Source: a virus. From it: DNA of 47,193 nt. The notes beneath the pieces are model-generated. The model ran no database searches. It was not told the origin of the DNA and saw nothing but the letters and a program-made list of their open reading frames with translations. Shown here piece by piece: positions 5,559 through 24,119 of this stretch. Each line of letters begins with the position of its first letter. Position 1 is the first letter of the stretch. The position numbers and the translations under genes were made by a program. The stretch covers positions 1-47,193 of the IMG/VR virus record IMGVR_UViG_3300045999_009251; one strand, written 5' to 3'.

Positions 5559-6158
5559 ATGATTAATGCTAAATTACTAGGAAAAAGAATCGCCGAAGCT
5601 CTTGTGAATGAACCAGGTCCTTGTTTTTATCCTGGAAGATTCAAACCACCGCACAAAGGACATTACGAAGCCGCTAAGGCTCTCGCAGCAAAAAACTACA
5701 TCACTCAGGTATATATTATCATAAGTAAGAAAGTTGTTGACGGAATTACGCCGGAAGACTCGCTTATGATTTGGAATATGTATTTAAAAGCGGAACCGAA
5801 TCCAAAAATTACGGTTAGGATCTCTACTGATGAATCCCCTATCGTAACTATCATAAATTTTCTAAAGAAAAATCCTACCGCAGATCCGGTGTATGTTACG
5901 GTAGGTGAAGATGAAGTGGATGATGTTGAGTACGGTAAAGCTTTGCAGCAGCAGTTTGGCGATAGAGTTAAGACAATTACAGTACAGGAAAGAGCCGGTG
6001 AAATTACTGCTCCGCACGTTAGAAATATTCTCGCAACAGGCGATTTTGAAGCTTTTGTAGAAGCCGTTCCTGAAGCTGCTTATAATAAAGGCGCTGCACC
6101 GAAAATTTTTAAAATGCTCGCTGGAAAAACAAAAGGAAATGAACCAGAAGAATCTTGA
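5559..6158 (+). CDS. Nucleotidyltransferase (HxGH superfamily) with possible head-targeting tag
   Basis: A 199-residue protein. The core GRFKPPHKGH near residues 28-37 is the HxGH nucleotidyltransferase signature (NMN adenylyltransferase, pantetheine-phosphate adenylyltransferase and relatives), and ITAPHVRNIL near residue 148 is the usual second motif (ISxTxxR-like). The reaction would be nucleotide transfer with release of pyrophosphate; the substrate cannot be read. The N-terminus, MINAKLLGKRIAEAL, contains I-A-E followed by A, the same cleavage-site form as T4 internal proteins, so packaging in the head is possible. It begins right after a late-promoter-like motif and its end overlaps the next gene by 20 bases. 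Confidence 0.75.
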   Translation: MINAKLLGKRIAEALVNEPGPCFYPGRFKPPHKGHYEAAKALAAKNYITQVYIIISKKVVDGITPEDSLMIWNMYLKAEPNPKITVRISTDESPIVTIINFLKKNPTADPVYVTVGEDEVDDVEYGKALQQQFGDRVKTITVQERAGEITAPHVRNILATGDFEAFVEAVPEAAYNKGAAPKIFKMLAGKTKGNEPEES

Positions 6159-7014
6159 TACTATAAAACATTTCCTTGGCTTTTGTAAAAAAGAACTAGA
6201 GATTCAATCTCTTCCTAATATTTCTTTGGTAAGAGATAAAAGCTTTGTGGAGAGGAGTAGATCTTTCGGTGAATATAATCCTAATGGAATGTCAATAAGG
6301 GTGTTTACCACAGGGAGAAACCTTGCTGACATATGTAGAAGCCTTGCACACGAACTTGTACATCACCGTCAACACGAACTAGGACTGATCTATAACGCTG
6401 CAGGCGAGACTGGTACTGAGATTGAAAACGATGCCAATTCTATTGCCGGCATTCTAATGAGAGAGTACGGAAAGTTAAACTTAAGTGTTTACGATTTAGA
6501 TTCGTCAGGTATAAAAGGTTTAGCAGAAGGAAAGCAGGTAGGTACTTTGTACCATTTTACCTCCTACACAAGTTTAATTAAAATTATTAAGAGCGACTTT
6601 GTCTTAACAACCACACAGACAGACATACAACCATACGTCTCCTTTACCAGGAATAAGAAATTTCAATCAGATACAATTTCTACTCAAGCAAGATTAACTA
6701 TCGATGGAGATCAGCTATCTAACAAGTATAAAATAACTCCACACGCGGATACAAAAGCGGGATACGGTAGAGGATCTCAAGACGAAGCTGAAGAAAGGAT
6801 TAGTTTAGTGAAGTATCCAAACGGAGTAGATGTCTCAAGATACCTCATAGAGGTAACCTTAAGAAAAATTAACACAGCTTTTGATTGGGAAGACCCAGAC
6901 TCTTTCCAAGATACGGAAGATTTTGTAGAACCTCCCAGTTTAGAATCCTACAACGAAGTACTTAAATTGTTAAAAGATAACGGAATACCTTACAAAATAG
7001 TCGATAGATACTAG
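6139..7014 (+). CDS. HExxH metallopeptidase fused to ADP-ribosyltransferase-like domain
   Basis: A 291-residue two-domain protein. Residues 1-115 hold a zincin motif, HELVH at 71-75, with a possible third ligand Glu at 94-96 in EIENDANSIAG. Residues 135-291 begin GTLYHFTSYTSLIKII, then YVSFTRNKKF at about 166-175 and a conserved acidic run DEAEERI at about 215-221. I recall this order (YH..T, S(F/L)TR, EEE) from marine phage proteins resembling ADP-ribosyltransferases of the H-Y/S-E type; the assignment is by pattern only. The linker has L-A-E then G (128-131), which fits the gp21-type cleavage consensus. Overlap with the upstream gene is 20 bases. Confidence 0.6.
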   Translation: MNQKNLDTIKHFLGFCKKELEIQSLPNISLVRDKSFVERSRSFGEYNPNGMSIRVFTTGRNLADICRSLAHELVHHRQHELGLIYNAAGETGTEIENDANSIAGILMREYGKLNLSVYDLDSSGIKGLAEGKQVGTLYHFTSYTSLIKIIKSDFVLTTTQTDIQPYVSFTRNKKFQSDTISTQARLTIDGDQLSNKYKITPHADTKAGYGRGSQDEAEERISLVKYPNGVDVSRYLIEVTLRKINTAFDWEDPDSFQDTEDFVEPPSLESYNEVLKLLKDNGIPYKIVDRY

Positions 7015-9245: not shown

Positions 9246-9593
9246 ATGATTAAGCTTTTAGATATACTAACCGAAGCAAAAGAAGAGAAAAAACCTCTCG
9301 AAGAATTTGCTGAAACTAGAGAGAAAGGTGCTGAAAAAATAGCAAAAAACGCCAAAGAAAAGGGCGGTTTCTCTATGTTGACTTATCACCACTTTGTCGT
9401 TAAGCTTCCGTACTACAAGAAAGCAGCAGAAGGAAAATTAGATTTCGAAAAAGCTAAGAAAGAGTATCACGAGCTTGTAGAAAAGCTTCATAAAGCTACA
9501 AAAGGTGATATGAAAATACAGCAAGTAGAGTTTCAAAAACTTGTTGGAAAGATAGAAGTACTAGGCGAACTTCTTATTAAAAATAAAAAATGA
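9246..9593 (+). CDS. Tagged late protein MIKLLDILTE, candidate internal head protein
   Basis: A 115-residue Lys/Glu-rich helical protein. The first ten residues, MIKLLDILTE followed by A, form the clearest example of the tag shared by several neighbours: a hydrophobic amphipathic stretch ending in (L/I)-x-E, the form cut by the T4 gp21 protease. The body contains MLTYHHFVVKLPYYKKAAEG, recalled from phage proteins without function. It starts 1 base after the upstream stop, and its own stop overlaps the next ATG as ATGA. Confidence 0.65.
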   Translation: MIKLLDILTEAKEEKKPLEEFAETREKGAEKIAKNAKEKGGFSMLTYHHFVVKLPYYKKAAEGKLDFEKAKKEYHELVEKLHKATKGDMKIQQVEFQKLVGKIEVLGELLIKNKK

Positions 9594-9982
9594 TCAGACT
9601 CGGAGACATACTAAGAGAGATGATCGAAGAAAAAGAAGATCGCTGTCTTCGTATTGCTCGCCGTAAATACGATAAACCTTCTGCATACCGTTCAGGTGCA
9701 ATTGTTAGATGTCGTCAAGGTAAGATCTGGAAAGGACTAAAAGAAGACGATATTACCGAAGAAAAAGAGTCTTTACATAAATGGTTCTCTAGACAAGGAG
9801 GTTCAGGAAGCAGTAAAGGATGGGTAGACTGCAATACGTGTCGTTCGGTAGATGGCAAGAAAAAATGTAAGTCATGCGGCCGTCAAAAAGGCGAAGACAG
9901 AGCTAAATACCCTTCATGTCGTCCAACTCCTTCTCAATGCAGCCGTCCGGGCAAAGGTAAAACTTGGGGGAAAACAAAATGA
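9590..9982 (+). CDS. Tagged Cys-rich basic protein, candidate internal DNA-binding protein
   Basis: A 130-residue protein with the tag MIRLGDILRE. Two basic modules follow. The first, about residues 18-50, has C-x-R-I-A-R-R-K-Y then PSAYRSGAIVRCRQGK. The second, about 60-130, has WFSRQGG, GWVDCNTC, KKCKSCGRQKGE, YPSCRPTPSQC. Six or more cysteines in the second part suggest zinc binding. Both modules are recalled from virion proteins of phages and giant viruses (the second, from memory, as DUF5872). Start and stop overlap neighbours as ATGA, so translation is coupled. DNA condensation is an inference from charge. Confidence 0.65.
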   Translation: MIRLGDILREMIEEKEDRCLRIARRKYDKPSAYRSGAIVRCRQGKIWKGLKEDDITEEKESLHKWFSRQGGSGSSKGWVDCNTCRSVDGKKKCKSCGRQKGEDRAKYPSCRPTPSQCSRPGKGKTWGKTK

Positions 9983-10167
9983 TCAAGCTGATTGACATAT
10001 TAAACGAAGTCAAAGAAGGTGTTCACGACCCTGTCAAACCCGGAATCCTCAAGAAAAGACTAGGAAAACTCTCTTGTTCTAGAGTAAGATCTGCTAAATC
10101 TAAGCTAAAAGACAAAGGGACTCACTACGCAAAAGCACTTCAAAGGTACCTTAACTATCACTGTTAA
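9979..10167 (+). CDS. Tagged small basic protein MIKLIDILNE
   Basis: A 62-residue protein counted from the ATG at 9979, chosen because it restores the shared tag MIKLIDILNE and overlaps the upstream stop as ATGA; an in-frame ATG five codons upstream is less likely. The body after the tag is Lys/Arg-rich (GILKKRLGKLSCSRVRSAKSK) and would be a small DNA-binding peptide after tag removal. No zinc motif is visible. Confidence 0.6.
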   Translation: MIKLIDILNEVKEGVHDPVKPGILKKRLGKLSCSRVRSAKSKLKDKGTHYAKALQRYLNYHC

Positions 10168-10168
10168 C

Positions 10169-10177
10169 TATTTATTA
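10169..10177 (+). promoter_or_regulatory. Late-promoter-like motif TATTTATTA
   Basis: Perfect consensus copy only 2 bases before the ATG at 10180. It is the tightest motif-to-start spacing in the window, shared with the copy at 18951. Confidence 0.6.
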
Positions 10178-10179
10178 CT

Positions 10180-10749
10180 ATGATAAAGCTAGCAGAAATA
10201 ATCGGAAAATGTAACGAATGCGGACGTGATTGGAATCACGGCCACGACCACGAAGCTGGTATGGCTAAAAATGAGTTAAGAGATATGATCTCTAACGCTT
10301 CTAAGATCGATCAAATGGTTAAGGAAGGCGATAATCTTCCGGGCTGGATTTCTGCTTACATTTCTTTAGCTGCCGATTATATGCATTCAGTAGCCGAATA
10401 TATGGCTGGCGAAACCGGTAGAATGGATGAACCTGGTCCTGGATATGGAATGGAAGAGGCAGCAGTACGTAAAACTCGCGGCGATAAAGGAAGAATGCAT
10501 AGTGCTAGTAGTAGAGACTACGGAGTTCCCTATACTCCAAAAACTGATTATAGAGTAGGTCAGAAATTTCATCATAAAGAACACGGAACTGGAACAATTA
10601 TTAAGGTAGAGCCTTCTACACCGAGAGATCAAGCTATTGAGAAAGGAGCAACAATCTACGTAGAATTCGTTAGAAAAGATCAACACGGCAATAACGTTAA
10701 AAAGAACGTTAAATTAAAAGTTAGAACCTTAGATCCAAGTGAAAGATAG
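10180..10749 (+). CDS. Tag-like start, LPxW-helical domain and SH3/Tudor-like domain
   Basis: A 189-residue protein. Its start MIKLAEIIGK resembles the neighbouring tags but lacks the Glu that would be cut. Residues 11-25 include CNECGRDWNHGHDH, a possible metal site. Residues about 28-85 (NELRDMI, NLPGWISAYISLAADYM, VAEYM) match a helical module I recall from many T4-like phage proteins. Residues about 125-187 begin VGQKFHHKEHGTGTIIKV, the opening of an SH3/Tudor-like barrel as in UvrD/PcrA C-terminal domains. The function is unknown; packaging is possible but less supported than for its neighbours. Confidence 0.55.
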   Translation: MIKLAEIIGKCNECGRDWNHGHDHEAGMAKNELRDMISNASKIDQMVKEGDNLPGWISAYISLAADYMHSVAEYMAGETGRMDEPGPGYGMEEAAVRKTRGDKGRMHSASSRDYGVPYTPKTDYRVGQKFHHKEHGTGTIIKVEPSTPRDQAIEKGATIYVEFVRKDQHGNNVKKNVKLKVRTLDPSER

Positions 10750-10970
10750 TGGTTAGGTTAGTAAACATATTAAAAGAGGTACTTCACAAGACTCAAATCA
10801 TGAAAATGGCTAGAGATATTGCAAATAGCCAAGCCCGTAGAGGTGAGTCACCAAAAGAAGCGATCGATTTTGCAGCTAATTCAGTAAAATTAAAATACGG
10901 TTATGACTTATCGGATGAAGATAAAAAAAGTTTAGAACACTGGGTATTTGTACATCCAAACTTTAGATAA
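10749..10970 (+). CDS. Tagged small protein MVRLVNILKE
   Basis: A 73-residue protein with a GTG start that overlaps the upstream TAG by one base. The GTG is supported because it yields MVRLVNILKE followed by V, the shared tag. The body is a small helical, Lys/Asp-mixed domain (ARDIANSQARRGESPKEAIDFAA, given by key residues) of unknown function. Confidence 0.6.
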   Translation: MVRLVNILKEVLHKTQIMKMARDIANSQARRGESPKEAIDFAANSVKLKYGYDLSDEDKKSLEHWVFVHPNFR

Positions 10971-10971
10971 T

Positions 10972-11565
10972 ATGAAACTCGACAAACTAAAAGGACACAT
11001 TCCTGACGCGGTAATTGCTCAGATTCCTGAAGTAATCGCTAAATTCGGATTTGATACTCCCGTTAAGCTTGCCCATTTTCTCGCCCAATGTGGACACGAA
11101 TCAGGCGGCTTTAAAGTAGTAAACGAAAATTTAAACTACGGAGCGAAGGGTCTTCTAGGTATTTTTAAGAAGTATTTCCCTGACGAGGCTAAAGCAAAAT
11201 TATACGAGCGTAAGCCTGAAAAAATCGCCAATCTCGTTTACGGAAACAGAATGGGAAATGGTCCGGAAACTTCAGGTGAGGGTTGGAAATACCGCGGACG
11301 CGGCTATATTCAATTAACCGGTAAGAATAACTATGCCGAATTCGATAAAGTAGTTACCGAAAATATTATTGAAAATCCAGACCTAGTTGCTACGAAGTAT
11401 CCATTACTTTCAGCTGCTTGGTTTTTCCATAAAAACTGCCTCGGTAGATGTAAAGACGCTACCGATGCATCCGTTACAGCCGTTACAAAATGCGTAAATG
11501 GCGGTACGATTGGATTACCAGATCGCCTAAAACACTTTAAAGAGTATCACGCTCTATTAGCTTAA
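10972..11565 (+). CDS. GH19-family endolysin
   Basis: A 197-residue glycoside hydrolase 19 (chitinase-like lysozyme) enzyme that would cut cell-wall glycan at lysis. Key parts are AQCGHESGGF with the catalytic Glu at residue 43, NENLNY with the second Glu near 52, and GRGYIQLTGKNNYA at 109-122. The chosen ATG at 10972 is 1 base after the upstream stop and gives a normal GH19 domain start; an in-frame start 8 codons earlier would overlap the upstream gene. It has no signal peptide or membrane segment, so a holin elsewhere is expected. No capsid tag is present. Confidence 0.9.
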   Translation: MKLDKLKGHIPDAVIAQIPEVIAKFGFDTPVKLAHFLAQCGHESGGFKVVNENLNYGAKGLLGIFKKYFPDEAKAKLYERKPEKIANLVYGNRMGNGPETSGEGWKYRGRGYIQLTGKNNYAEFDKVVTENIIENPDLVATKYPLLSAAWFFHKNCLGRCKDATDASVTAVTKCVNGGTIGLPDRLKHFKEYHALLA

Positions 11566-11566
11566 T

Positions 11567-12034
11567 ATGACAAATAGAGATATTATAAGAAAACTAATCC
11601 TTAATGAAGTAGAGAGGATGGAACCAAAGGTAAAATCCTTTGAAGACGATCCTATCAGTTTTATTCTACAGAAATATCCAACCCTTAGGAAGACTCTTGA
11701 GATGTTAATGACTCCTGCTTTCAAGGATTACATTACCGGCATTTATATTACTGCACCAAAACCAACCACCTTTAAAGTTGTTCTTCATAACGGACAGTAT
11801 TTTACTCTAACCTTCCTTGGAAAGGCTTACGAGGCAACAGTCAATGGAAAGAAGTTCTACCTGCAGACAATTGGGGAAAGAGAGAGATGTATCAATGCTA
11901 TAGCTAGGTCGTTACAAACGGGAAATCCTATTGAGACAAAGGGTCCTGAAGGGGAAGAGAAGACATCTGAACCGGAAGAAGCTCCAGAAGAAACTTCGGC
12001 AGAAGAAGAAACAGCAGAAGAAACAGAATCTTAA
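11567..12034 (+). CDS. Tagged late protein with acidic tail
   Basis: A 155-residue protein starting 1 base after the endolysin stop. The N-terminus MTNRDIIRKLILNE followed by V fits the shared cleavable tag, with a longer leader. A compact central domain (about 25-120) includes FKVVLHNGQYFTLTFLG and FYLQTIGERERC. The last 35 residues are almost only Glu, Pro, Ala, Thr and Ser, a disordered acidic tail. The function is not recognised. Confidence 0.6.
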   Translation: MTNRDIIRKLILNEVERMEPKVKSFEDDPISFILQKYPTLRKTLEMLMTPAFKDYITGIYITAPKPTTFKVVLHNGQYFTLTFLGKAYEATVNGKKFYLQTIGERERCINAIARSLQTGNPIETKGPEGEEKTSEPEEAPEETSAEEETAEETES

Positions 12035-12062
12035 AATAACCCCTCTAGAGATAGTATCTTTA
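12035..12062 (+). repeat. 28-bp direct repeat, copy 1
   Basis: Identical to 12481-12508. It starts just after the stop codon of the gene at 11567 and contains the palindrome CTCTAGAG. The two copies bracket the gene at 12090. Confidence 0.9.
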
Positions 12063-12089
12063 TGTTTATAATAAATTTAAAAAAAAAAT

Positions 12090-12485
12090 ATGAAAAAGTC
12101 ACTACTTAGCGAAGTTCGCAAAATGCAAAAGATTGCCGGTATTTTAAAAGAGGATGAAGATTTTGCTCAAAAATATGATGAAGCAATTAGGTGGGCCTAC
12201 GAAATGACTCCTGAACTTATGTACGAAGATGGCGAGTTTGGAGATGATGTTGAAAGTTTAATTCAGGCAGAAGAAGAGTTTATAGCTTTACTACAATCAG
12301 AAGAGATTAATCCAGAAAGTACTCATGCCTATAAACGTTTTTGGAATCACGCACTTTCTTATGCCAAAGATCACGGCGTTACTGATTTAGAAGATTTTAA
12401 AAATTGGTTTAAAGACACTGCTGTTGAATCACAAGCATATTTAAACGTTTTTGATTCAGACCCGGCCTTTAAAATTATACAATAA
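12090..12485 (+). CDS. Tagged acidic late protein flanked by direct repeats
   Basis: A 131-residue acidic helical protein beginning MKKSLLSE followed by V, and continuing RKMQKIAGILKE, so two (L/I)-x-E sites lie within the first 21 residues. The (R/K)-x-Q-x-(I/L)-A-G stretch is shared with the gene at 20736 and with the last residues of the scaffold. The start follows a run of ten A. The gene is bracketed by 28-bp direct repeats, the second overlapping its stop codon, which suggests it was inserted or duplicated as a cassette. The function is unknown. Confidence 0.6.
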   Translation: MKKSLLSEVRKMQKIAGILKEDEDFAQKYDEAIRWAYEMTPELMYEDGEFGDDVESLIQAEEEFIALLQSEEINPESTHAYKRFWNHALSYAKDHGVTDLEDFKNWFKDTAVESQAYLNVFDSDPAFKIIQ

Positions 12486-12508
12486 CCCCTCTAGAGATAG
12501 TATCTTTA
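12481..12508 (+). repeat. 28-bp direct repeat, copy 2
   Basis: Exact second copy of 12035-12062, overlapping the stop codon of the gene at 12090 and lying just before a terminator hairpin. Confidence 0.9.
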
Positions 12509-12513
12509 GACCG

Positions 12514-12545
12514 ACCCGGCCTTAAAAACGCCGGGTTTCTTTTTG
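12514..12545 (+). terminator. Rho-independent terminator
   Basis: Stem ACCCGGC (12514-12520) pairs with GCCGGGT (12530-12536) around a 9-base loop and is followed by TTCTTTTT. It closes the small-protein cassette. Confidence 0.85.
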
Positions 12546-12593
12546 TTGGAATCTCGAATATTTTTTCGTATTTTAGTTAAAATAGATGTTATT

Positions 12594-12845
12594 ATGCGAG
12601 TACGAAACGAAACTAAAACTATGAAAACCGTTTGCGGTAAGACAATTAGTTATCTTCAAACTGACGGACACCCTAATAAAATGCACTCTACCACCGGGCC
12701 TGCAGTAGTTTATTCTGAAGAGCAAAATAAAGCTCCTGAATATTATCTCTACGGAATCAAGTATTCAAAAGCAGATTGGAAAGAAAGAGTGTCTTTTCGG
12801 AAACCTCCTACTTCTGTCGAAACTTTCCCTGATTCACAGTTCTAA
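12594..12845 (+). CDS. Small protein with MHSTTGPAVV / YYLYGIKYSKADW motif
   Basis: An 83-residue protein. The ATG at 12594 is preferred over an in-frame TTG at 12543 because the TTG lies in the terminator tail. The body has KMHSTTGPAVVY and YYLYGIKYSKADW, a pattern recalled from small phage and bacterial proteins of unknown role in which an H-x(3-4)-GPA segment is followed by a Tyr/Trp strand. It is the only gene between the terminator and the next late-promoter-like motif, so it probably has its own promoter; the T-rich stretch 12560-12590 is the only candidate and is not clear. Confidence 0.5.
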   Translation: MRVRNETKTMKTVCGKTISYLQTDGHPNKMHSTTGPAVVYSEEQNKAPEYYLYGIKYSKADWKERVSFRKPPTSVETFPDSQF

Positions 12846-12847
12846 AC

Positions 12848-12856
12848 TATTTATTA
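12848..12856 (+). promoter_or_regulatory. Late-promoter-like motif TATTTATTA
   Basis: Perfect copy 12 bases before the ATG at 12869, just after the upstream stop. It would drive the packaging module. Confidence 0.6.
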
Positions 12857-12868
12857 GTAAACGATCCT

Positions 12869-13306
12869 ATGATATTCAACCTACAAAAGTTCTTAGTTGA
12901 GAACAAATTAACTAAAAGATCTCGTCTTGACGAGGATGCTATGACTAAGACTGACGCTGAACAAGAAGCTATGGGAGCGGAAGAAGGAGATGAAGAAATG
13001 CTCGGTGATGAACCGGAAGATACTTGGTATAAGGACGATTCTGGTGATACAGGAGAGTTTGAAAAAGAACCTACTAAGACTGACGTTAAAGAACCGGCTT
13101 CTCTTTCTGGTATACATAAAAAACAGGCCGACTTAAAAGCTCTTGAAGATAAAAAGGATGCATTATTAATGCAACTAAAGAGCGGACAACTTGGACTTGA
13201 CCAATATAAAGTAGCGATCGGTAACATTCCTGCTCAAATTAAAAAATTAAGAGCCGATATTGATAAAGTCTTAGGAATGGCCGGGGATGAAGAAGATCTG
13301 GCATAG
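12869..13306 (+). CDS. Acidic coiled-coil protein before terminase, possible small terminase or tagged internal protein
   Basis: A 145-residue protein. It begins MIFNLQKFLVE followed by N, another tag of the (L/I)-x-E form. Residues about 25-75 are very acidic and disordered, and residues about 80-140 form a helical segment with heptad-like leucines (LKALEDKKDALLMQLKSGQL). Position immediately before the large terminase and similar length to T4 gp16 (about 164 residues) make a small terminase possible, but no DNA-binding motif is visible and the tag argues for an internal head or scaffold-associated protein. The role is uncertain. Confidence 0.55.
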   Translation: MIFNLQKFLVENKLTKRSRLDEDAMTKTDAEQEAMGAEEGDEEMLGDEPEDTWYKDDSGDTGEFEKEPTKTDVKEPASLSGIHKKQADLKALEDKKDALLMQLKSGQLGLDQYKVAIGNIPAQIKKLRADIDKVLGMAGDEEDLA

Positions 13307-13326
13307 TAGGTTATAAAATTTTGTGG

Positions 13327-14916
13327 ATGAGTCAACGAGCAGCTATAAGCGATGCTATAAGACAAGAACTTATAAGGTGTAAGCAGGATCCTGTATACTT
13401 CATGAAGAAGTACTACACCATTCAGCATCCTACAAAAGGTCGAATGACCTTTAATCTCTATCCGTTTCAGGAAAAAGTACTAAAGCTACTACAGAGACAC
13501 GACTACAGTATAATCAACAAGTCAAGGCAGCTTGGTATCTCTACTCTAACGTCTGCCTTTTCCTTATGGATGATGTTATTTGAGCAGGATAAAAACGTTC
13601 TTGTTCTCGCTACCACTCAAGCTACTGCAAAAAACATGGTAACTAAGGTAAGATTTGCCTATGACAATCTGCCTACCTGGATGCAAATGCCAGTAATTGA
13701 ACACAACCGTCTAAGTTTAAGATTAAAGAACGGTTCACAAATTAAAGCTGTTTCTGCAGCCACGGATAGTGCTCGTTCAGAAGCGGTATCATTACTTGTA
13801 ATAGATGAAGCAGCGTTTATTGATAGAATTGAAGATATTTTTACTGCAGCTCAGCAAACTCTTGCTACCGGAGGTAGATGTATTGCACTGTCTACACCTA
13901 ACGGAGTGGGTAACTGGTTTCACAAAGAATTTACTCGTGCACAGACTGGTGAAAATAAGTTTACCCCTATCTCGCTTCCCTGGACAGTACACCCAGAAAG
14001 GACTCAAGAATGGCGAGATGAACAAGATGCCACGTTAGGTAAAAGGAATGCAGCACAGGAATGTGATTGCGACTTCTCTACCTCAGGTAATACTTTCCTT
14101 GAACCAGATACACTTAACTGGTATCAACTTAACACGGTAAGAGAGCCTCTTGAAAGGAGAGATATCGGACAATCTTACTGGCTCTGGGACTACCCCAATG
14201 CAACCTGTACTTACATGGTACTTGCAGATGTAGCAAGAGGAGATGGAATGGACTTTTCTACCTTCCATGTCTTAGAAGTTGATACCATGACTCAGGTAGC
14301 TGAGTTTAAGGATCAAATATCTACAAAAGACTTCGCACGCAAGTTAGTCTCGGTCGCTATTGAGTGGAATAACGCAATGCTTGCAATAGAAAATGCAAAT
14401 ATTGGATGGGATGTAGTTACTACAATCCAGGAAATGGGTTATCCAAACCTATATTACTCTCCCAAATCTGAAGTAGTAGGGACACAGATTGAACTCTACG
14501 TTGAAAAATTCGATAGAGGAGACGGAATGGTACCGGGATTTAGTATGAATCAGAGAACTCGTCCACTTGTACTTGAAAAAGCTAGATCTTTTCTTGAAGA
14601 GAAAAGCGTAGTAATTAGGTCACAGAGATTGCTGGATGAGTATAGAGTGTTTATCTGGAAAAACGGAAAAGCACAGGCCCTTCACGGGTACAATGACGAC
14701 CTCGTCTTAGCATACAGTATTGGACTTTTTCTTCGTGATACAGCTATTCGTTTCCGACAAACAGCTATGGACTTAGCCTACGCAAGTCTCAACAGCTACA
14801 CCAGAACTCAAGGAGATTTTCAAATTTACACTCCAAACAACGCCGCAAACCAACAAAATCCATGGCAGATGCCCGTAAATGGTCAACAGGAAGACATTGG
14901 GTGGCTGATAGGATAA
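13327..14916 (+). CDS. Large terminase subunit (T4 gp17-like)
   Basis: A 529-residue packaging motor. The ATPase domain has Walker A-like SRQLGIS at 66-72 and Walker B LLVIDEAAF at 156-164, with ALSTPNG near 187-193 as the coupling motif. The nuclease domain has LADVARGDG with Asp near 301, AIENAN with Glu near 355, and YNDDLVLA near the C-terminus as the third acidic ligand. The ATG at 13327 is preferred to a TTG two codons upstream. It cuts concatemeric DNA and pumps it through the portal encoded next. Confidence 0.95.
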   Translation: MSQRAAISDAIRQELIRCKQDPVYFMKKYYTIQHPTKGRMTFNLYPFQEKVLKLLQRHDYSIINKSRQLGISTLTSAFSLWMMLFEQDKNVLVLATTQATAKNMVTKVRFAYDNLPTWMQMPVIEHNRLSLRLKNGSQIKAVSAATDSARSEAVSLLVIDEAAFIDRIEDIFTAAQQTLATGGRCIALSTPNGVGNWFHKEFTRAQTGENKFTPISLPWTVHPERTQEWRDEQDATLGKRNAAQECDCDFSTSGNTFLEPDTLNWYQLNTVREPLERRDIGQSYWLWDYPNATCTYMVLADVARGDGMDFSTFHVLEVDTMTQVAEFKDQISTKDFARKLVSVAIEWNNAMLAIENANIGWDVVTTIQEMGYPNLYYSPKSEVVGTQIELYVEKFDRGDGMVPGFSMNQRTRPLVLEKARSFLEEKSVVIRSQRLLDEYRVFIWKNGKAQALHGYNDDLVLAYSIGLFLRDTAIRFRQTAMDLAYASLNSYTRTQGDFQIYTPNNAANQQNPWQMPVNGQQEDIGWLIG

Positions 14917-14919
14917 AGA

Positions 14920-14928
14920 TATTTATTA
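14920..14928 (+). promoter_or_regulatory. Late-promoter-like motif TATTTATTA
   Basis: Perfect copy 3 bases before the portal ATG at 14932 and 3 bases after the terminase stop. Confidence 0.6.
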
Positions 14929-14931
14929 GAT

Positions 14932-16887
14932 ATGGCAGATCAACAACCACAAAGGAACCTATTTTCAGCGCTCAAACGGCTGTTTTCTACTGATGTTATC
15001 ATTAGAAACGACGGCGGAACGTTAAAAACAGTAGATGTAGAGAATATACAGACGAATGGCGTACTACAGACCAACGCACTCGTTGACCGTTTTAATCGCA
15101 TCTATACTACTTCCACCTCTTATGGAGTAAATCTTAACCTTTCACAAAACTATCAGAGTGCGAGGGTGCAGATTTATGCCGATTACGAGGCTATGGATAC
15201 GGATCCTATCATTGCATCTGCATTAGATATTATTGCCGATGAATGTACTCTAAAAAATGCTCAAGGCGACGTAATTCAAATCCGTTCATCAGATGAAAAC
15301 ATTCAAAAAATACTTTATAGCTTATTCTACGACGTACTCAACATTGAGTTTAATTTGTGGTTCTGGATTAGAAATATGTGTAAGTATGGTGATTTTTTTC
15401 TTAAGCTCGAGGTAGCAGAAAAGTACGGAGTTTACAACGTAATTCCGTTCTCTGCTTACAACATCGTACGTCTTGAAGGTACTAATCCTTCAAATCCTTC
15501 AGAGGTAATTTTTAAGTATGACCCTACTGCCGCCCTCGGTGCTACAGCAGGTTATTCTACCTCATATCAGAACACAGACTTAGGTATTACATTCTACAAC
15601 TACGAAATGGCTCACCTAAGATTGATTGGAGACGTTAATTACCTACCGTACGGCCGTTCTTATTTAGAACCAGGTCGTAGACTTTATAAGCAGTACGTCT
15701 TAATGGAGGATGCGATGATGATCCATCGTCTGACTCGTGCACCACAGCGCCGTATCTTCTACGTAAACGTGGGAGCTATACCTCCAAATGAGGTTGAGAA
15801 CTACATGCAGCGCATGATTAACAAGATGAAGAAAACACCTCTTGTAGATCAAAAAACCGGACAGTATAACCTAAACTATAACGTGCAGAACATGCTTGAA
15901 GACTTCTTCATTCCTGTACGTGGTAACGATTCTTCTACGCGTATTGATAACGCACCACCGCTTGAGTATAACGGTATCGAAGATATTAATTACCTACTTA
16001 ACAAACTGTTTGCAGCCCTTAAGATCCCTAAAGCATTCCTTGGATATGAAAAGGATTTAACAGGTAAGGCTACATTGGCTGCTGAAGATATTCGCTTTGC
16101 ACGTACCATTGAAAGAATTCAGCGTATTGCACTTTCAGAGTTAAATAAAATTGCCCTCGTACACCTTTACGCACACGGATATGACGATGAATCGTTAACC
16201 AATTTTGAATTAACGCTCACTACTCCTTCTATTATTTACGAGCAAGAGAGGATTGCTCTTATGAAGGAGAAGATGGATCTTGCCGCCCAGATGATGGAGA
16301 CCAGCTTCTTACCGACTGACTGGATTTACGATAAGTTATTTCACTTCTCTGAAGAAGAGTTTGATGAATATCGCGACCTGGTTGTTGAGGATAAGAAGAG
16401 AATGTTCCGTATAAAACAGATTGAAGAAGAAGGTAATGATCCAGCAGAAAGCGGACAAGCATACGGTACACCTCACCAAATTGCTTCAATGTACGGCGGA
16501 TATGGATCAGCTCCCCTATCAGGTCAAAATGTACCGCAGGGTTATGATGAAACCAATTCAACCGAACCTACCAAACTTCCCGGCCGACCTGCAAACAAGG
16601 TATCGCTCATCAACACTCACGACGATCCTCTCGGAAGAGATAGAATGGGAGTTTATGATTTGAAGTCTAAACCAAATTCAGGAGAAGACGGGTTAAAAGC
16701 TAAGTTTACAGGCGGAAATCCGTTATCGTTGAAAGAGCATAAGAATACTACTGTAGCTGCTTACCTAACTAATAAAGCTGCATTAGAGAGTTATAAGAAA
16801 AATAAGAGAGTAAACATTTACGAAACCGATAAAACCAACGAGTTACTTGATGAATCTCGTATTAGACCTGATTCAGATTTAATCTAG
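14932..16887 (+). CDS. Portal vertex protein (T4 gp20-like)
   Basis: A 651-residue protein, longer than T4 gp20 (about 524). The core shows the gp20-type order: IASALDIIADECTLKN near 85-100, RRIFYVNVGAIPPNEVENYM near 275-295, and FLGYEKDLTGKATLAAEDIRFARTIERIQ near 370-400 (given by key residues). The C-terminal 150 residues are Gly/Pro/Asn-rich then charged and look disordered, which explains the extra length. It forms the dodecameric ring for DNA entry and the neck platform. It lies directly after terminase, as expected. Confidence 0.93.
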   Translation: MADQQPQRNLFSALKRLFSTDVIIRNDGGTLKTVDVENIQTNGVLQTNALVDRFNRIYTTSTSYGVNLNLSQNYQSARVQIYADYEAMDTDPIIASALDIIADECTLKNAQGDVIQIRSSDENIQKILYSLFYDVLNIEFNLWFWIRNMCKYGDFFLKLEVAEKYGVYNVIPFSAYNIVRLEGTNPSNPSEVIFKYDPTAALGATAGYSTSYQNTDLGITFYNYEMAHLRLIGDVNYLPYGRSYLEPGRRLYKQYVLMEDAMMIHRLTRAPQRRIFYVNVGAIPPNEVENYMQRMINKMKKTPLVDQKTGQYNLNYNVQNMLEDFFIPVRGNDSSTRIDNAPPLEYNGIEDINYLLNKLFAALKIPKAFLGYEKDLTGKATLAAEDIRFARTIERIQRIALSELNKIALVHLYAHGYDDESLTNFELTLTTPSIIYEQERIALMKEKMDLAAQMMETSFLPTDWIYDKLFHFSEEEFDEYRDLVVEDKKRMFRIKQIEEEGNDPAESGQAYGTPHQIASMYGGYGSAPLSGQNVPQGYDETNSTEPTKLPGRPANKVSLINTHDDPLGRDRMGVYDLKSKPNSGEDGLKAKFTGGNPLSLKEHKNTTVAAYLTNKAALESYKKNKRVNIYETDKTNELLDESRIRPDSDLI

Positions 16888-16895
16888 TACGTCGA

Positions 16896-16904
16896 TATTT
16901 ATTA
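16896..16904 (+). promoter_or_regulatory. Late-promoter-like motif TATTTATTA
   Basis: Perfect copy 15 bases before the ATG at 16920. Confidence 0.6.
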
Positions 16905-16919
16905 GTAAGCTTACTGTCA

Positions 16920-17771
16920 ATGATCAAGCATAGCAAATACAAAAACACCGGTGTTCTATTTGAGCTTTTAGTACGTCAAGCCACGGCAGATTTAATGTCA
17001 AACAAAGACCCTAAAGCTGTCAAAATCTTTAAGAAGTACTTCACAAACACGGAGTTAGGTAAAGAATACAACCTTTATAACACCGTCGCCAATGCACCAA
17101 AACTTACAGAATCTAAAGCTGAAATCCTTATAAACACTATTATTGATCAAGCCAAAAAGCTTGACAGAGTGAAATTAGATAAGGAAAAGTACAATTTAAT
17201 TCGAGAAGTTAAGAAACACTACGATCTTGACGATTTTTTTAAAGCAAAAATCAGTAACTACAAGATTCACGCCTCAGTATATACTCTTATTGAGAATCAA
17301 CTTACTAAGAAGTTTTCAGATACTAAGCAGCTCGTTACCAACAAACTTACTCTTCTTGAGCATATTACCAAAGAAACCTTAACTGAAAGAAAGGTTGCCT
17401 CTAAGGTAGTAGAAGAATTCATGAAAGAAGATAAAGAAATTAGAATTCTTGCTTATAAAATTTTAGTAGAGAAATTTAACGAAAAGTATGCAAGCCTTTC
17501 CGGAGAACAGAAAGATTTGTTGAAAGAATATATCAATAACGTTTCTGATACTAAGAAACTAAGAACCTATCTCAACACAAAATTGCTCGAAGTTAAAACC
17601 GAGCTCGTAGACATCAAGTCTAACGTAGGAGATAAGGTTCTTCAGATTAAATTAAACGAGGTTTTGAACTTTATTAAGCCTCTCGGTCCAAATGAATCTA
17701 TTAAGGACGAGGTTTTAATTGGCTTAATGCAGTACTATCAATTGATTAGTGAGCTCAAAGCCGTAAAATAA
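16920..17771 (+). CDS. Conserved head-module protein MIKHSKYKNTG
   Basis: A 283-residue, Lys-rich, almost wholly helical protein. The start MIKHSKYKNTGVLFELLVRQ is a signature I recall from T4-like phages of marine hosts, always between portal and prohead protease; no function is known to me. Long helices with regular Leu/Ile spacing suggest coiled-coil assembly, for instance in the prohead core. It is one base overlapped with the next gene (TAATG). It lacks the cleavable tag of the neighbouring genes. Confidence 0.65.
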   Translation: MIKHSKYKNTGVLFELLVRQATADLMSNKDPKAVKIFKKYFTNTELGKEYNLYNTVANAPKLTESKAEILINTIIDQAKKLDRVKLDKEKYNLIREVKKHYDLDDFFKAKISNYKIHASVYTLIENQLTKKFSDTKQLVTNKLTLLEHITKETLTERKVASKVVEEFMKEDKEIRILAYKILVEKFNEKYASLSGEQKDLLKEYINNVSDTKKLRTYLNTKLLEVKTELVDIKSNVGDKVLQIKLNEVLNFIKPLGPNESIKDEVLIGLMQYYQLISELKAVK

Positions 17772-18808
17772 TGAACAATCAGTTTGCCACACAGTTTTTA
17801 CGGGAAGATAGAGAAGAACTCTCTGTCGAAGATTTGATAGCCTCTCTACGCCCTACCTTAGACAAAGCTATAGAGTTAGGAATTAGTGCAGACGACATTA
17901 AGGCTATGGTTGCTAGTGCTTTTAATCTAGAAGAAGACGGAGCAGCCGCAGCACCTGCTGGCGGAGGAAGTACAACAGGCGGCGGATCAACAGCTGGCGC
18001 AACCTTTACCCCGGGCACTGGTGAGCAAACAGCTACTACAAAAGCTTTTAAGAAAAAAAAATACCAAGAAGGTATAGGTGCTAACTGCGTTCCTGTCGAA
18101 GAATTAGAAGCTGTTTTAAGAGCTTTTCAAGCTGAGCGAACAGAGAAGTTAAGACAATTAATAACTAAATACGGCGGAACAGTATCAGAAGATGCACCAC
18201 GCCTAGCCGGCGATCCAAGTAAAACTAATGCACAAGGTTCAAAAAATCTTAATGCATATTCTAGCGTAGGTTTTACAAAAGCACCCAATGCCGAAGAGGC
18301 AGGAAAAAAAATCAAAGGCGTACAAGTCAAGATGCTTTGGAACGAAGGGACAGTAGAAGTAAGGTGGAAAGATATTGAGGAGCATACAAAAAAGCTAGGT
18401 AGAAAACTACATGGATTCAAACCTGACTCTAGCGAAGAAAAGTACTTCCTAGATTATATGAGAGATGCTTTTAATCAAGAGTTGATTACTAGCCCACAAA
18501 GCCTACTCACCACTGCTTCTAATTACACAGATGCCGTTAGGGAAGAACTCAATGAATCACGCGCTTACTCTAAATTCCGGAAAGAAACTTCCACAAGAAG
18601 TAAGGACCAGCAGATGCATGAAGCGGTTAAAATAATTCATAATAAACTTGAAGAGGTATCCAAGCTCGTAGAATTTGCTCAGCAAATGAGAACTGAGTTA
18701 TCTGAAGGTGAAAATACTCTTGAATACAAGCATAACACTAAAAAGATCTTTGAGAAAATCAATTCTAAAGTAATTGAAGTCTATACTAAAACTAGAAACC
18801 TAAAATAA
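17771..18808 (+). CDS. Tagged head-module protein sharing a GATFTPGxGEQ segment with the major capsid protein
   Basis: A 345-residue protein. The N-terminus MNNQFATQFLRE followed by D fits the cleavable tag. Residues 57-75 are an Ala/Gly/Thr/Ser-rich linker, and 76-86 read GATFTPGTGEQ, nearly identical to residues 71-81 of the major capsid protein. A Lys-rich patch follows. The C-terminal half is helical and charged (QMHEAVKIIHNKLEEVSKLV). It lies between portal and protease where T4 has the core proteins gp67 and gp68, so a prohead-core or internal role is inferred. Confidence 0.6.
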   Translation: MNNQFATQFLREDREELSVEDLIASLRPTLDKAIELGISADDIKAMVASAFNLEEDGAAAAPAGGGSTTGGGSTAGATFTPGTGEQTATTKAFKKKKYQEGIGANCVPVEELEAVLRAFQAERTEKLRQLITKYGGTVSEDAPRLAGDPSKTNAQGSKNLNAYSSVGFTKAPNAEEAGKKIKGVQVKMLWNEGTVEVRWKDIEEHTKKLGRKLHGFKPDSSEEKYFLDYMRDAFNQELITSPQSLLTTASNYTDAVREELNESRAYSKFRKETSTRSKDQQMHEAVKIIHNKLEEVSKLVEFAQQMRTELSEGENTLEYKHNTKKIFEKINSKVIEVYTKTRNLK

Positions 18809-18812
18809 AGTC

Positions 18813-18947
18813 ATGGCAAAAGCAAAAGGTGGAGGTGACTCTAGAAAAATCACCTTCGGTAAACGTAAAACAGGTTCTGCACAGAAAAGTTATAATAAAC
18901 ACACTCCTCGCCCGAAAGCATATAGAGGACAGGGAAGAAAGCCTTAA
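18813..18947 (+). CDS. Small very basic protein (44 residues)
   Basis: A short gene 4 bases after the upstream stop, encoding MAKAKGGGDSRKITFGKRKT then a Lys/Arg/Gly/Tyr-rich end (KAYRGQGRKP). I recall the FGKRKTG and YRGQGR strings from the same position in other marine T4-like phages, which supports it as real. Its place matches T4 gp67, but gp67 is acidic while this is strongly basic. It may bind DNA or the acidic scaffold; this is inference. Confidence 0.65.
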   Translation: MAKAKGGGDSRKITFGKRKTGSAQKSYNKHTPRPKAYRGQGRKP

Positions 18948-18950
18948 AGC

Positions 18951-18959
18951 TATTTATTA
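18951..18959 (+). promoter_or_regulatory. Late-promoter-like motif TATTTATTA
   Basis: Perfect copy 2 bases before the ATG at 18962 and 3 bases after the preceding stop. Confidence 0.6.
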
Positions 18960-18961
18960 TT

Positions 18962-20104: not shown

Positions 20105-20731
20105 ATGAACAAGCAAGTCTTAATAGAATATTTACCTTTCAAGCCACTACCTAAGCAGCTACACGAGGCTAGGATGAATCCTAAAGCACCTCTTATTGTA
20201 GCCGGCCTAGTACAGGCAGCCGATAAACCTAACGCAAATAGACGTATCTACGATTACGATACTCTTGCTAAGCAGGTAGAGCTCTATATTGAAGGACCTG
20301 TTAGAGAGAGAAGAGCATTAGGTGAACTTGATCACCCCGAGTCTTCTGTAATCAACCTTAAGAATGTTTGTCATAACATTACAAGACTCTGGTGGGAGGG
20401 TAAAAACCTAATGGGTGAGTTTGAGATTCTAGATACACCTTCAGGAAATATTCTTAGAGAGTTGTTTATGAATAATATTACAGTAGGCGTTTCTTCTCGT
20501 GCAATGGGATCGGTTTCACCAATAGGTGAAGGTTTAGTTCAGGTAGAAGATGATTTAGAATTAATTTGCTGGGATTTTGTTTCAACTCCATCTACGTATG
20601 GTGCTTATGTAAAACCGGTAGGTGGATTAAACGAGTCTTACAATCCTGGTCAAGAAAAACTCTCAAGCGTAAATAAGCTAATATCAGATATTATTTGTAC
20701 CCAGAGCGGTGTTTGCTGTATAAAGCCTTAA
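20105..20731 (+). CDS. Prohead core protease (T4 gp21-like, serine peptidase)
   Basis: A 208-residue peptidase of the gp21 family. Catalytic elements are LGELDHPES with His at 77 and TVGVSSRAMGS with Ser at 130-131; the LVQVEDDLELICWDFVSTPS block that follows is typical of the family. It cleaves head proteins after (L/I)-x-E during maturation, which is the site form found in the tags of many proteins here. Its own N-terminus has VLIE and LHE sites at residues 5-8 and 19-21, consistent with self-processing. It starts 1 base after the upstream stop. Confidence 0.92.
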   Translation: MNKQVLIEYLPFKPLPKQLHEARMNPKAPLIVAGLVQAADKPNANRRIYDYDTLAKQVELYIEGPVRERRALGELDHPESSVINLKNVCHNITRLWWEGKNLMGEFEILDTPSGNILRELFMNNITVGVSSRAMGSVSPIGEGLVQVEDDLELICWDFVSTPSTYGAYVKPVGGLNESYNPGQEKLSSVNKLISDIICTQSGVCCIKP

Positions 20732-20735
20732 TAAA

Positions 20736-21074
20736 ATGAAACGACAACTTAACGAAATTAAAAGACTGCAAGAACTTGCAGGAGTTGTTGGAGAGGAAGA
20801 AAATAATTCACTAAAAGACGGTAATGTTTTTGACGATGTACCTTCCATAGACATCTCTATACAGACAGATGAAAGAGGAGAAGATACTCTTTTCATGAAT
20901 ATAAGTACTTTGTATCACGGAGGAGGAAATAAGAAGATATCTTTATTAAAAGATAATCCTAGGTTGCAGCAACAGGTAATGCAAACCATGCAATCTGAGA
21001 TACAAAAAACATTCAGAAGAGTTATTCACTCTATACTCGGTGAACCCTACGGGTTACCAGAATCAGAAAAATAA
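20736..21074 (+). CDS. Small tagged protein between protease and scaffold
   Basis: A 112-residue protein. It starts MKRQLNE followed by I, then RLQELAGVV, close to the start of the gene at 12090 (KMQKIAGIL). After the tag it has a mixed acidic domain with helical C-terminal half (NPRLQQQVMQTMQSEIQ). It lies 4 bases after the protease stop, inside the T4-like head-maturation block. The function is unknown; an internal or core role is inferred from tag and position. Confidence 0.55.
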   Translation: MKRQLNEIKRLQELAGVVGEEENNSLKDGNVFDDVPSIDISIQTDERGEDTLFMNISTLYHGGGNKKISLLKDNPRLQQQVMQTMQSEIQKTFRRVIHSILGEPYGLPESEK

Positions 21075-21114
21075 ACTTTTTCACTAAGAATCAAGGTTTT
21101 CCATTCCAATACGA

Positions 21115-21123: not shown

Positions 21124-21127
21124 TCGT

Positions 21128-21212: not shown

Positions 21213-22373
21213 ATGGAAAATCAAGAATTGTTTAAACAAGCAATCCTTGACGCAAAGGCTGTTCGTGAGACTGCTATGGCTGCTGCCAGAACTACTCTCG
21301 CCGAGCATTTCGAGCCTTTCATCAAGGAAACCATGGAGAAAGAGCTTCAAAAAGAAGAAGACGACACCATGGAAGAGAGCGCTGACATGGAGGAAGTTAA
21401 GATGCATGACGATAAAAAGGAAATGCATAAAGAGACTGCTGACATGGAAGAGGCTACTCTTGACGAAATCCTAGCTGAATTAGACGCTCTTTCTGAGACT
21501 GAAAAAGTTGAAGAAGGAGAAGACCTAGAAGAAGGTCACGTAAAGTCTGATGGCTACGACGGAAAAGCCGCTAAAGGCGGAACTGGTTATGACGAGAAAG
21601 CCAAGGTTAGTCATGGCGATCACAAACTTCACGAAGCTGAAGATGACGAAAAAGAAAAGGAAGACGACGATGCTGAAGAAGCCGGCGAAGACCTTACTAA
21701 AGACATCGAAGCCGGTGAAGAAGGTGGAGACAAGCAAGAAGTAGTAGACATTACCGTAGGCGACTTGAAAGACATCATTCGTGATGTATTCATGCAACTA
21801 CAAGGCGGTGGCGGTGCTCTCGATGCTGATACTGACCTAGCTGCTGACTTAGGTGGTGGTGAAGAAATGGAAGCAGGAGAAGAAGAAATTTCTCTTGACG
21901 AAATTCTTGCCGAACTCGAAAAAGAAGAGAAAGGTAAAAAAATGGAAGAAGGTACAGGTCCTGGCGGTAAAATTGATCCGTCAGCCGAAGACGTTCACAT
22001 GGTTCAGTACGATGAGATGAAACAAGAACTTAACGAAGCCGTTAAGACTATTAAAGCACTCAAGACTGAATTGAACGAAATCAACCTCTTCAGCGCCAAG
22101 CTTCTCTACGTAAACAAAGTTTTCAAAGCTAAGAATCTTTCTGAAGCACAGAAAACTAAAGTGATCAACGCTTTTGATAGAGCAACCTCTGTAAAAGAAG
22201 TTGAAAACACTTACAAGACTTTACTTGAGTCTTTAGCCGTAGAAAGCAAAAAATCCTCTCTTAAAGAATCTGTAGGTTTTGCATCAAAGCCAATCGGTAA
22301 TGCCCCAGCTAGACCGATTGTTGAAGCTGACGCTTTCGTAACAAGATGGCAGCAGCTAGCTGGAATTAAATAA
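21213..22373 (+). CDS. Prohead scaffold protein (T4 gp22-like)
   Basis: A 386-residue, extremely acidic protein with long Glu/Asp/Lys-rich and Gly-rich disordered stretches between a helical N-terminus (MENQELFKQAILDAKAV) and a helical C-terminal third. Position just before the major capsid gene, composition and several (L/I)-x-E sites (such as ILAE and LDEILAE) fit the T4 gp22 scaffold, which is degraded by the prohead protease. It ends in RWQQLAGIK, an echo of the QxLAG string in the small proteins at 12090 and 20736. No motif defines the family, so the call rests on context and composition. Confidence 0.75.
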   Translation: MENQELFKQAILDAKAVRETAMAAARTTLAEHFEPFIKETMEKELQKEEDDTMEESADMEEVKMHDDKKEMHKETADMEEATLDEILAELDALSETEKVEEGEDLEEGHVKSDGYDGKAAKGGTGYDEKAKVSHGDHKLHEAEDDEKEKEDDDAEEAGEDLTKDIEAGEEGGDKQEVVDITVGDLKDIIRDVFMQLQGGGGALDADTDLAADLGGGEEMEAGEEEISLDEILAELEKEEKGKKMEEGTGPGGKIDPSAEDVHMVQYDEMKQELNEAVKTIKALKTELNEINLFSAKLLYVNKVFKAKNLSEAQKTKVINAFDRATSVKEVENTYKTLLESLAVESKKSSLKESVGFASKPIGNAPARPIVEADAFVTRWQQLAGIK

Positions 22374-22406: not shown

Positions 22407-24119
22407 ATGTCAAATCTAGTTAATTCACTTCTTGAGAGTGCTAACCCGTACAACGATCAGTTGGGTGTTAGCCAGAAGCTTGCCAAGAAGTGGGCCAAAT
22501 CTGGTCTCCTCGAAGGTTTGAAAGATTACGACCGCACTAATATGGCCGTTATTCTTGAGAACCAAGCCAAGCAACTCGTACTTGAATCTTCTACAACTGG
22601 TGGTGGTGTAACCAACGGTGCTACCTTTACTCCTGGTAATGGTGAGCAGTGGGCTGGTGTAGCTCTTCCTCTTGTTCGTAAGATCTTCGGTCAGATCGCC
22701 TCTAAAGAGTTCGTTTCTGTACAGCCGATGAACCTTCCTGCTGGTCTAGTATTTTACTTAGACTTCCAGTATGGTAACAACATCCCTAAGCCTTTCGTTA
22801 AAGGACAGTCCGTTTACGGTACTTTGAACCAAACTGCTAACAGCGGATTTGGTAACCTAGCTGAAGGTGGTCTTTATGGCCAGGGCCGTTTTGGTTATTC
22901 TATTAACCAATTCTCTGCCTCTTACTACTCTGGTTCAGCTACTGCTGCTCTAGCTACATTCCAAGATGTAAACTTTAACTCAGCTTACTCTCAGTCTGTA
23001 GTAGATAACAAAATGATCAAGATCACTATCAGCACTGGTTCTTTAGTAATCGACACTAACGGTGTTCGTGCTTTCGAACTTTCTGGTAGCAACAACGCAT
23101 CTATCGCACCAGCTACACTTATCAATGACTTCACAGTTATTAGCGGTGGTAACTTGGTATTCTTTGTTAGCGGTTCTACTCTAGCAACAGTACAGACCTC
23201 ACTTTCTGGTTCTGGTGCTGACAACGCTAGAGGAACAACCTTGTTCTATAACAAAGCTACTAACTTCGCAACTCGTGGTGATTTCGAAGATGCTCCTCAA
23301 GATACACCTACTCCGTTCTCTAACCCGAACGCTGCTAGCGCTGAGTCTATCGTTATCCCTGAGATCAACGTACAGATGAAGTCTGAGACCATTTCTGCTA
23401 AGACTCGTAAGTTGAAAGCACAATGGACTCCAGAATTCGCTCAAGACTTGAATGCTTACCATTCATTGGATGCTGAAGCTGAATTGACTGGTATGCTTTC
23501 TGAGTACATCTCTCTTGAGATCGATCTTGAAATCCTTGATATGCTTATCGAGAACGCTCAGACAGTTGCTAACTGGTCTGCTCAGATCGGTAATCAAATC
23601 AACGCCGCCGGTACTGCTTATGTAAGCAATACTGCTGGTGCTTACTACAACCAAATGTCTTGGTTCCAAACTTTGGGTATCAAGCTACAGGCTGTATCTA
23701 ACAAAATCCATCAGTTGACTCTTCGCGGTGGTGCTAACTTCCTAGTTTGCTCTCCAACTGTTGCTACAATCCTCGAATCAATTCCTGGATTTGCTGCTGA
23801 TACAGACGGAGCTGCTGACACTATGAAGTATGCTTTCGGTGTTCAGAAGATCGGTGCTCTTAACAGTCGTTACAAGGTTTACAAGAACCCTTACATGACT
23901 GAGAACACTATCTTGATGGGCTTCCGTGGTAACCAATTCTTGGAGTGCGGTGCTGTTTACGCTCCGTATGTACCGTTGATCATGACTCCGCTAGTGTACG
24001 ATCCAAATACCTTCACTCCTCGTAAAGGTATCATGACTCGTTACGCTAAGAAGATGATCCGTCCTGAGTACTACGGTAAGGTATATGTAAACGACCTTCA
24101 GGTAGCTCAAGCTAGCTAA
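22407..24119 (+). CDS. Major capsid protein (T4 gp23-like)
   Basis: A 570-residue HK97-fold capsid protein. The N-terminal delta-domain reads LLEGLKDYDRTNMAVILENQ near 34-52 and ends at LVLE60, a site matching the T4 gp23 maturation cut after Glu65. The hallmark block near 318-375 (VQMKSETISAKTRKLKAQW, then QDLNAYHSLDAEAELTG) aligns by eye with T4 gp23. Residues about 170-310 are a Ser/Gly/Thr-rich region that looks like a surface insertion. The C-terminus carries the usual MTRYAKKMIRPEYYG block. It follows the scaffold gene by 33 bases and is closed by a strong terminator. Confidence 0.95.
   Translation: MSNLVNSLLESANPYNDQLGVSQKLAKKWAKSGLLEGLKDYDRTNMAVILENQAKQLVLESSTTGGGVTNGATFTPGNGEQWAGVALPLVRKIFGQIASKEFVSVQPMNLPAGLVFYLDFQYGNNIPKPFVKGQSVYGTLNQTANSGFGNLAEGGLYGQGRFGYSINQFSASYYSGSATAALATFQDVNFNSAYSQSVVDNKMIKITISTGSLVIDTNGVRAFELSGSNNASIAPATLINDFTVISGGNLVFFVSGSTLATVQTSLSGSGADNARGTTLFYNKATNFATRGDFEDAPQDTPTPFSNPNAASAESIVIPEINVQMKSETISAKTRKLKAQWTPEFAQDLNAYHSLDAEAELTGMLSEYISLEIDLEILDMLIENAQTVANWSAQIGNQINAAGTAYVSNTAGAYYNQMSWFQTLGIKLQAVSNKIHQLTLRGGANFLVCSPTVATILESIPGFAADTDGAADTMKYAFGVQKIGALNSRYKVYKNPYMTENTILMGFRGNQFLECGAVYAPYVPLIMTPLVYDPNTFTPRKGIMTRYAKKMIRPEYYGKVYVNDLQVAQAS

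Follow-up and report, generated by a model that had tools for sequence, protein, structure and literature searches.

What is the role of the short, similar N-terminal segments carried by unrelated small proteins in the late region of a T4-like phage? The question is raised by IMGVR_UViG_3300045999_009251, a single linear IMG/VR virus record that was analysed over its full 47,193 nucleotides (hereafter the window). The record covers the late region of a T4-like phage, with terminase, T4-type portal, S77 prohead protease and gp23 capsid genes, and the closest cultured relative found, Flavobacterium phage immuto, has the same head-gene order. Genes were called with a simple script. The segments are very probably head-targeting tags, and the longer proteins in which the same signal recurs between modules would, by the same reading, be effector polyproteins cut by the S77 protease.

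Leaders on unrelated proteins of the head-gene region

The initial annotation had listed eight proteins with a leader ending in (L/I)xE as a single set of capsid-targeting tags. All eight open reading frames (ORFs) are open at the coordinates given, and the bodies behind the leaders are indeed unrelated (best pairwise E 0.73). The (L/I)xE ending is common to the eight, but the list mixes at least three types (MIKL, KRMQxLAGI at 12090 and FxLxxFLxEN at 12869). It was also incomplete, omitting a tag at 20736, the C-terminus of the scaffold, an internal site in the protein of 6139-7014 and a tag-like start at 46986. The consensus of the core tag is MI(K/R)L-x-(D/N)-(I/L)-L-x-E.

The core tag is in the same register as T4 leaders, which read MKTYQEFIAE^A in IPII and IPIII and MAKINELLRE^S in gp24 in the T4 record (^ follows the Glu of the motif). 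In mutagenesis of T4 IPIII, targeting was ascribed to residues 4 and 7 and processing to residues 8 and 10, and Asp at residue 10 blocked processing while targeting was retained (PMC9026906). The window tags have hydrophobic residues at 4 and 7, Leu at 8 and Glu at 10. The proposed likeness to T4 capsid-targeting sequences is thus borne out residue by residue: as in T4 IPI-III and Alt, a leader of 10-20 residues with hydrophobic positions 4 and 7 and (L/I)xE at 8-10 stands before unrelated bodies in a phage that also encodes an S77 protease. The system differs from that of T4 in leader sequence, in its number of cargo families (at least 66), in the position of the cargo cluster upstream of the terminase gene, in having a second leader type common to the scaffold C-terminus, and in carrying LxE between the modules of chained cargo. 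In SPN3US and phiKZ-type giant phages, the head protease also strips N-terminal propeptides from ejected proteins; those propeptides are mostly longer than 100 residues, whereas the leaders here have 10-22 (PMC5694885).

The motif is in excess over chance. An (L/I)xE ending at residues 7-25 is found in 13 of the 19 genes in 9246-22407 versus 7/34 elsewhere in the window (Fisher p 0.001), and shuffling the N-termini of this head region gave a mean of 5.0 and a maximum of 10 in 2000 shuffles. Among relatives selected by TerL, 302/566 genes upstream of TerL carry an N-terminal (L/I)xE versus 149 expected by shuffling (maximum 177), and residues 37-55 of the same 566 proteins contain it in 93. The position of the motif peaks at residue 10 (9.7% versus 1.6% background). 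When N-termini were selected for LxE at residue 10 alone, the targeting half was recovered in most of the 36 proteins, all with distinct bodies (I2 30/36, K3 30/36, L4 32/36, D/N6 28/36, I/L7 32/36); when they were selected for the targeting half alone (residues 1-4 and 7), LxE stood at residue 10 in 55/68 N-termini versus 9/945 internal copies. The two halves predict each other, as expected of a single functional element.

The protease itself, annotated earlier as gp21-like, was identified by its catalytic-region profile and gene place: the ORF at 20105..20731 (+ strand) matches PF03420 over residues 27-172 (87.3 bits, E 1.3e-24) and sits between the T4-type portal gene and the gene for the major capsid protein of the gp23 family (22407..24119, + strand; PF07068 E 2.5e-76). 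The capsid protein has a tag-like N-terminus of its own, MSNLVNSLLE, and LLE (residue 10) and ILE (residue 51) are both conserved in its relatives. Three complete or near-complete genomes, those of immuto and two relatives, have N-terminal LxE more often close to the S77 gene (within 26 kb) than farther away (25/56 versus 34/160, 22/56 versus 36/176 and 21/49 versus 47/185).

To follow the tag among uncultured phages, IMG/VR was scanned with a DNA pattern for MIK(L/F)xD(I/L)LxE; the counts that follow refer to the matches listed, which are not a random sample. At least 141 complete tagged ORFs, all of at least 50 residues, were found in at least 66 body families. Their tags are encoded by 129 distinct 30-mers with many synonymous codons; codons vary while residues are constant, so it is the peptide that is conserved. 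A control pattern of the same codons in permuted order had 18 matches in the whole collection, nine of which stand at the start of ORFs of 50 residues. S77 is present in 29/50 tag contigs, many of which are fragments, versus 4/18 control contigs, and six more tag contigs have another T4-type head gene. Cargo bodies match a zeta-toxin-like kinase (9e-9), Nudix (4e-14), RNase_T exonuclease (7e-11), a cell-wall hydrolase (1e-8), ART-PolyVal (2e-10) and a deoxyribonucleotidase (1e-28). As a separate observation, gp087 of the cultured phage immuto (L082:9856-10455), annotated as a 5'-3' deoxyribonucleotidase, starts with MKKVMGNLADLLLE^ES and is a possible head-delivered nucleotidase. In the open-access literature, searched without the string KRMQxLAGI as a term, no description was found of such tags in uncultured phages, of that motif or of effector polyproteins processed by a prohead protease.

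A motif shared with the scaffold and putative cleavage signals between modules

The second tag has the form KRMQxLAGI(I/L)xE, and (I/L)xE follows KRMQxLAGI in many proteins. In the window, variants are found at the N-termini of the proteins at 12090 (RKMQKIAGI) and 20736 (KRLQELAGV), and a third, RWQQLAGIK (22344..22370, + strand), forms the C-terminus of the gp22-like scaffold (ORF 21213-22373). Among the terminase relatives, KRMQxLAGI lies near the N-terminus in 30 cases and near the C-terminus in 25 (the examples shown being scaffolds), with none between; in scaffold relatives it is at most 12 residues from the C-terminus. A scan of the collection gave 86 N-terminal, 28 C-terminal and 5 middle positions among the matches listed. 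As the motif occurs at cargo N-termini and at the scaffold C-terminus but almost never between, the simplest reading of the sequences suggests that the cargo mimics the scaffold's end and docks on the core in like manner.

Bodies that are MIKL-tagged in one phage are found as modules inside longer proteins in other phages. Of 126 non-redundant cases, 65 have (L/I)xE within four residues of the homologous boundary, where 10.9 would be expected, and the offsets peak sharply at zero; without a single case that contains an internal MIKL sequence, the count is 64/125 versus 10.9. Enrichment is 5.9-fold for [LI]xE and 3.4-fold for [VM]xE, and is absent at these boundaries for LxD (0.84x), LxK (0.94x), AxE (0.54x), LxN, LxS and SxE. 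The P4 position, which corresponds to targeting residue 7, is hydrophobic in 20% of junctions versus 92% of tags, while P3 and P1 are retained and Ala or Gly is common at P1'. Thus the targeting half is gone and the processing half kept, which argues for cleavage sites in use.

An example in the window is the two-module protein at 6139..7014 (+ strand), which combines a zincin metallopeptidase (residues 1-120) with a KptA/DarT-like ADP-ribosyltransferase (ART) fold (131-291). In a structure model built from fusion set A4, VIA matched residues 1-114 to the zincin Wss1 (Z 8.1) and residues ~130-291 to tRNA 2'-phosphotransferase (Z 10.7) and DarT (Z 8.1-8.7); Foldseek alone missed the ART domain. 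HExxH is present. Pfam at E 0.05 gave no family for this protein, and one tagged relative each matches ART-PolyVal and MPTase-PolyVal. A prohead-protease site, LAE^GKQVG (context GLAE^GKQVG; 6520..6528, + strand), is predicted between the modules with P1 at residue 130, within a linker (125-132) that the model gives low confidence, and stand-alone ART forms start MIKLKDILLE^AKQVG. By fold, this single phage protein unites zincin and ART modules, as do polyvalent proteins (Iyer et al. 2017, PMC5512222), which are encoded by phages and conjugative elements. The tag system has in common with these the logic of injected effectors and the chaining of zincin, ART, ParB-like and nuclease modules. Autoproteolysis by zincin domains was proposed for polyvalent proteins (PMC5512222); unlike in that case, the modules here also occur singly with a tag, and their boundaries carry the prohead-protease consensus. 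Separately, a P-loop kinase and a HAD-type nucleotidase, together the activity pair of polynucleotide kinase-phosphatase, are fused in the tagged chains L204:173-1501, L090:8528-9763 and L109:1846-3066; the first two chains have LxE between the modules, and L109 lacks it at that place.

Tagged proteins and other features of the window

The tags described in this section lie on the + strand. MIKLLDILTE (9246..9275) begins ORF 9246-9593, whose helical body belongs to a family of at least 15; L8 and E10 are invariant in 16 orthologues including that of immuto. In its AlphaFold model, pLDDT is 57 in the tag and ~97 in the body from residue 18, and a fold search with the body found nothing in the PDB at E 1e-3 or better, a result silent on the novelty of the fold. 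MIRLGDILRE (9590..9619) begins ORF 9590-9982, made up of a RCLRIARRKYDK module and a DUF5872-like module (PF19197 E 1.8e-5, below the family cut-off). Close to the module boundary there are extra LxE sites, whose P1 residues are 52 and 57, and the second module is found alone with its own tag in L010 and L091. That weak DUF5872 match was the only one among the eight bodies, which had no strong functional match in Pfam or PHROGs. The small basic domain of ORF 9979-10167, tagged MIKLIDILNE (9979..10008), is internal in other proteins, where LxE stands at its boundary.

ORF 10180-10749 has a degenerate tag, MIKLAEIIGK (10180..10209), in which P1 is not Glu; its relatives have MIKLKNLLPE or MIKLKHLLPE, with Glu intact. 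Since the targeting half is retained and Glu is lost, as in the targeted but unprocessed IPIII with Asp at residue 10 (PMC9026906), this protein is predicted to be packaged uncut. ORF 10749-10970 starts at GTG with MVRLVNILKE (10749..10778), and in two relatives, L005 and L010, a related body is tagged MIKLSSILYE. The 14-residue leader MTNRDIIRKLILNE (11567..11608) of ORF 11567-12034 is assigned to a tag class with less certainty. Leaders of the second type are MKKSLLSEVRKMQKIAGILKE (12090..12152) in ORF 12090-12485, which was part of the KRMQxLAGI census, and MKRQLNEIKRLQELAGVVGE (20736..20795) in ORF 20736-21074. In ORF 12869-13306, the leader MIFNLQKFLVE^NKLTKRSRLDE^D (12869..12934) has two LxE sites, a doubled pattern that recurs in immuto (FNLRSFLTENKLTKNAQLLKE and FDLKKFLVENKLTTNSKILKE). 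The probable core protein of ORF 17771-18808 begins with MNNQFATQFLRE (17771..17806), and its relatives have MNNQFATQFLLE or YLRE in the leader. At the window end, the truncated ORF 46986-47193, adjoining a probable tail sheath gene, has two LxE at its start (QLFE and QVIAE^AK) and possibly a tag.

The window has no T4 late promoter in the usual orientation. TATTTATW, which is the T4 late -10 element read as its reverse complement and hence wrongly oriented to serve as one, is found 19 times on the coding strand versus once on the other (including 10169, 12848, 18951, 24209, 27495 and 29736), and many gene starts have it 11-14 or 21-29 nt upstream. Its counts in relatives are 404 against 80, with two sharp distance peaks at 10-14 and 20-24. 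Long, probably tail fibre- or adhesin-like proteins, rich in SSSYALS-type and NTAIGYNAL-type repeats as read from the sequence, lie at 1627-2985, 30116-34849 and 35086-39027. A run of genes at 39056-43389, between tail genes, was judged by eye to encode a probable glycosyltransferase, an FkbM-like methyltransferase and sulfotransferase-like products.

Proposed effector delivery from the head

Packaging, cleavage, injection and cargo function are proposed here by analogy with T4 (PMC9026906; PMC12373910) and with work on polyvalent proteins (PMC5512222; PMC9503650). As the prohead grows, a tagged protein would join its scaffold core by way of the hydrophobic face that roughly the first seven residues of the tag form, and cargo of the second type would do so through the motif that copies the scaffold's C-terminus. 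Cleavage by the S77 protease behind the Glu of (L/I)xE would then release the body within the head, from which it would exit with the DNA at infection. With the same cleavage signal between modules, one packaged chain could give several separate effectors.

The N-terminal pattern might instead be a general amphipathic start, set by an AT-rich genome or by translation initiation and with no targeting role. MIK-type starts do use AT-rich codons, and tripeptides of the form (L/I)xE are frequent (1.6% per position). However, neither shuffled N-termini nor internal windows nor the permuted-codon control reproduce the pattern, its residues are kept while codons vary, and it is found mostly in the head region; this explanation is largely refuted and hardly credible. 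There is a slim chance that the tags recruit only structural or assembly factors to the prohead core, with no injection, as the resemblance of the tagged proteins 17771 and 20736 to core parts might suggest. The Nudix, exonuclease, zeta-like kinase, nucleotidase and ART-like cargo have no obvious assembly role, however, and T4 internal proteins with such leaders are injected anti-restriction proteins (PMC12373910).

For the chained proteins, it is unlikely that the boundary LxE is a relic of fusions between tagged genes, unused as a cut site. The boundary does coincide with the end of the tag in stand-alone forms, but decay should erase both halves equally, whereas the sequence upstream is no longer tag-like, with its low proportion of hydrophobic P4, while P3 and P1 persist and strong enrichment is confined to [LIVM]xE. 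Separation of the chains by their own zincin domain, in place of the S77 protease, would fit the HExxH of the zincin-ART protein and the autoproteolysis proposed for such domains (PMC5512222); it is quite unlikely, as the S77 consensus is also found at boundaries in chains with no recognised zincin (e.g. L090, L204 and L267).

Several observations weigh against targeting and cleavage by the S77 protease. P1' in the tags is often I, V, T or K, while the T4 propeptides read here have A or S next, so cleavage of some tags may be inefficient. Roughly half of the internal boundaries have no LxE, and the zincin-ART protein has none at its N-terminus, so that the model does not account for its route into the head. 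No recognised T4-type head gene is present in 15/50 tag contigs, including one of 102 kb; all are fragments. Lastly, some tagged genes are distant from head genes (immuto 24569 and 25061; G025 4514 and 64185). The initial annotation had taken a tag on clearly cytoplasmic early proteins as grounds for rejection; proximity to the head genes holds for most tagged genes, and the few distant ones are small and without assigned function. T4 ipII and ipIII themselves lie ~37 kb from the T4 head genes.

Head targeting with release by the S77 protease would, somewhat more probably than otherwise, extend to a modular effector delivery system of aquatic T4-like phages, in which tagged single effectors, some imitating the scaffold C-terminus, and true polyproteins are released in the capsid by the head-maturation protease. 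The tag provides a sequence rule for picking out, among the late orphan proteins of uncultured T4-like phages, those that probably reach the host as infection begins, and orphan genes thereby become candidate anti-defence effectors. The head-maturation protease, known for shell maturation, is suggested to double as the polyprotein protease of injected effectors. Recruitment of cargo by copying the scaffold's end is likewise suggested, and both this and the cutting of polyproteins are testable in the cultured Flavobacterium phage immuto.

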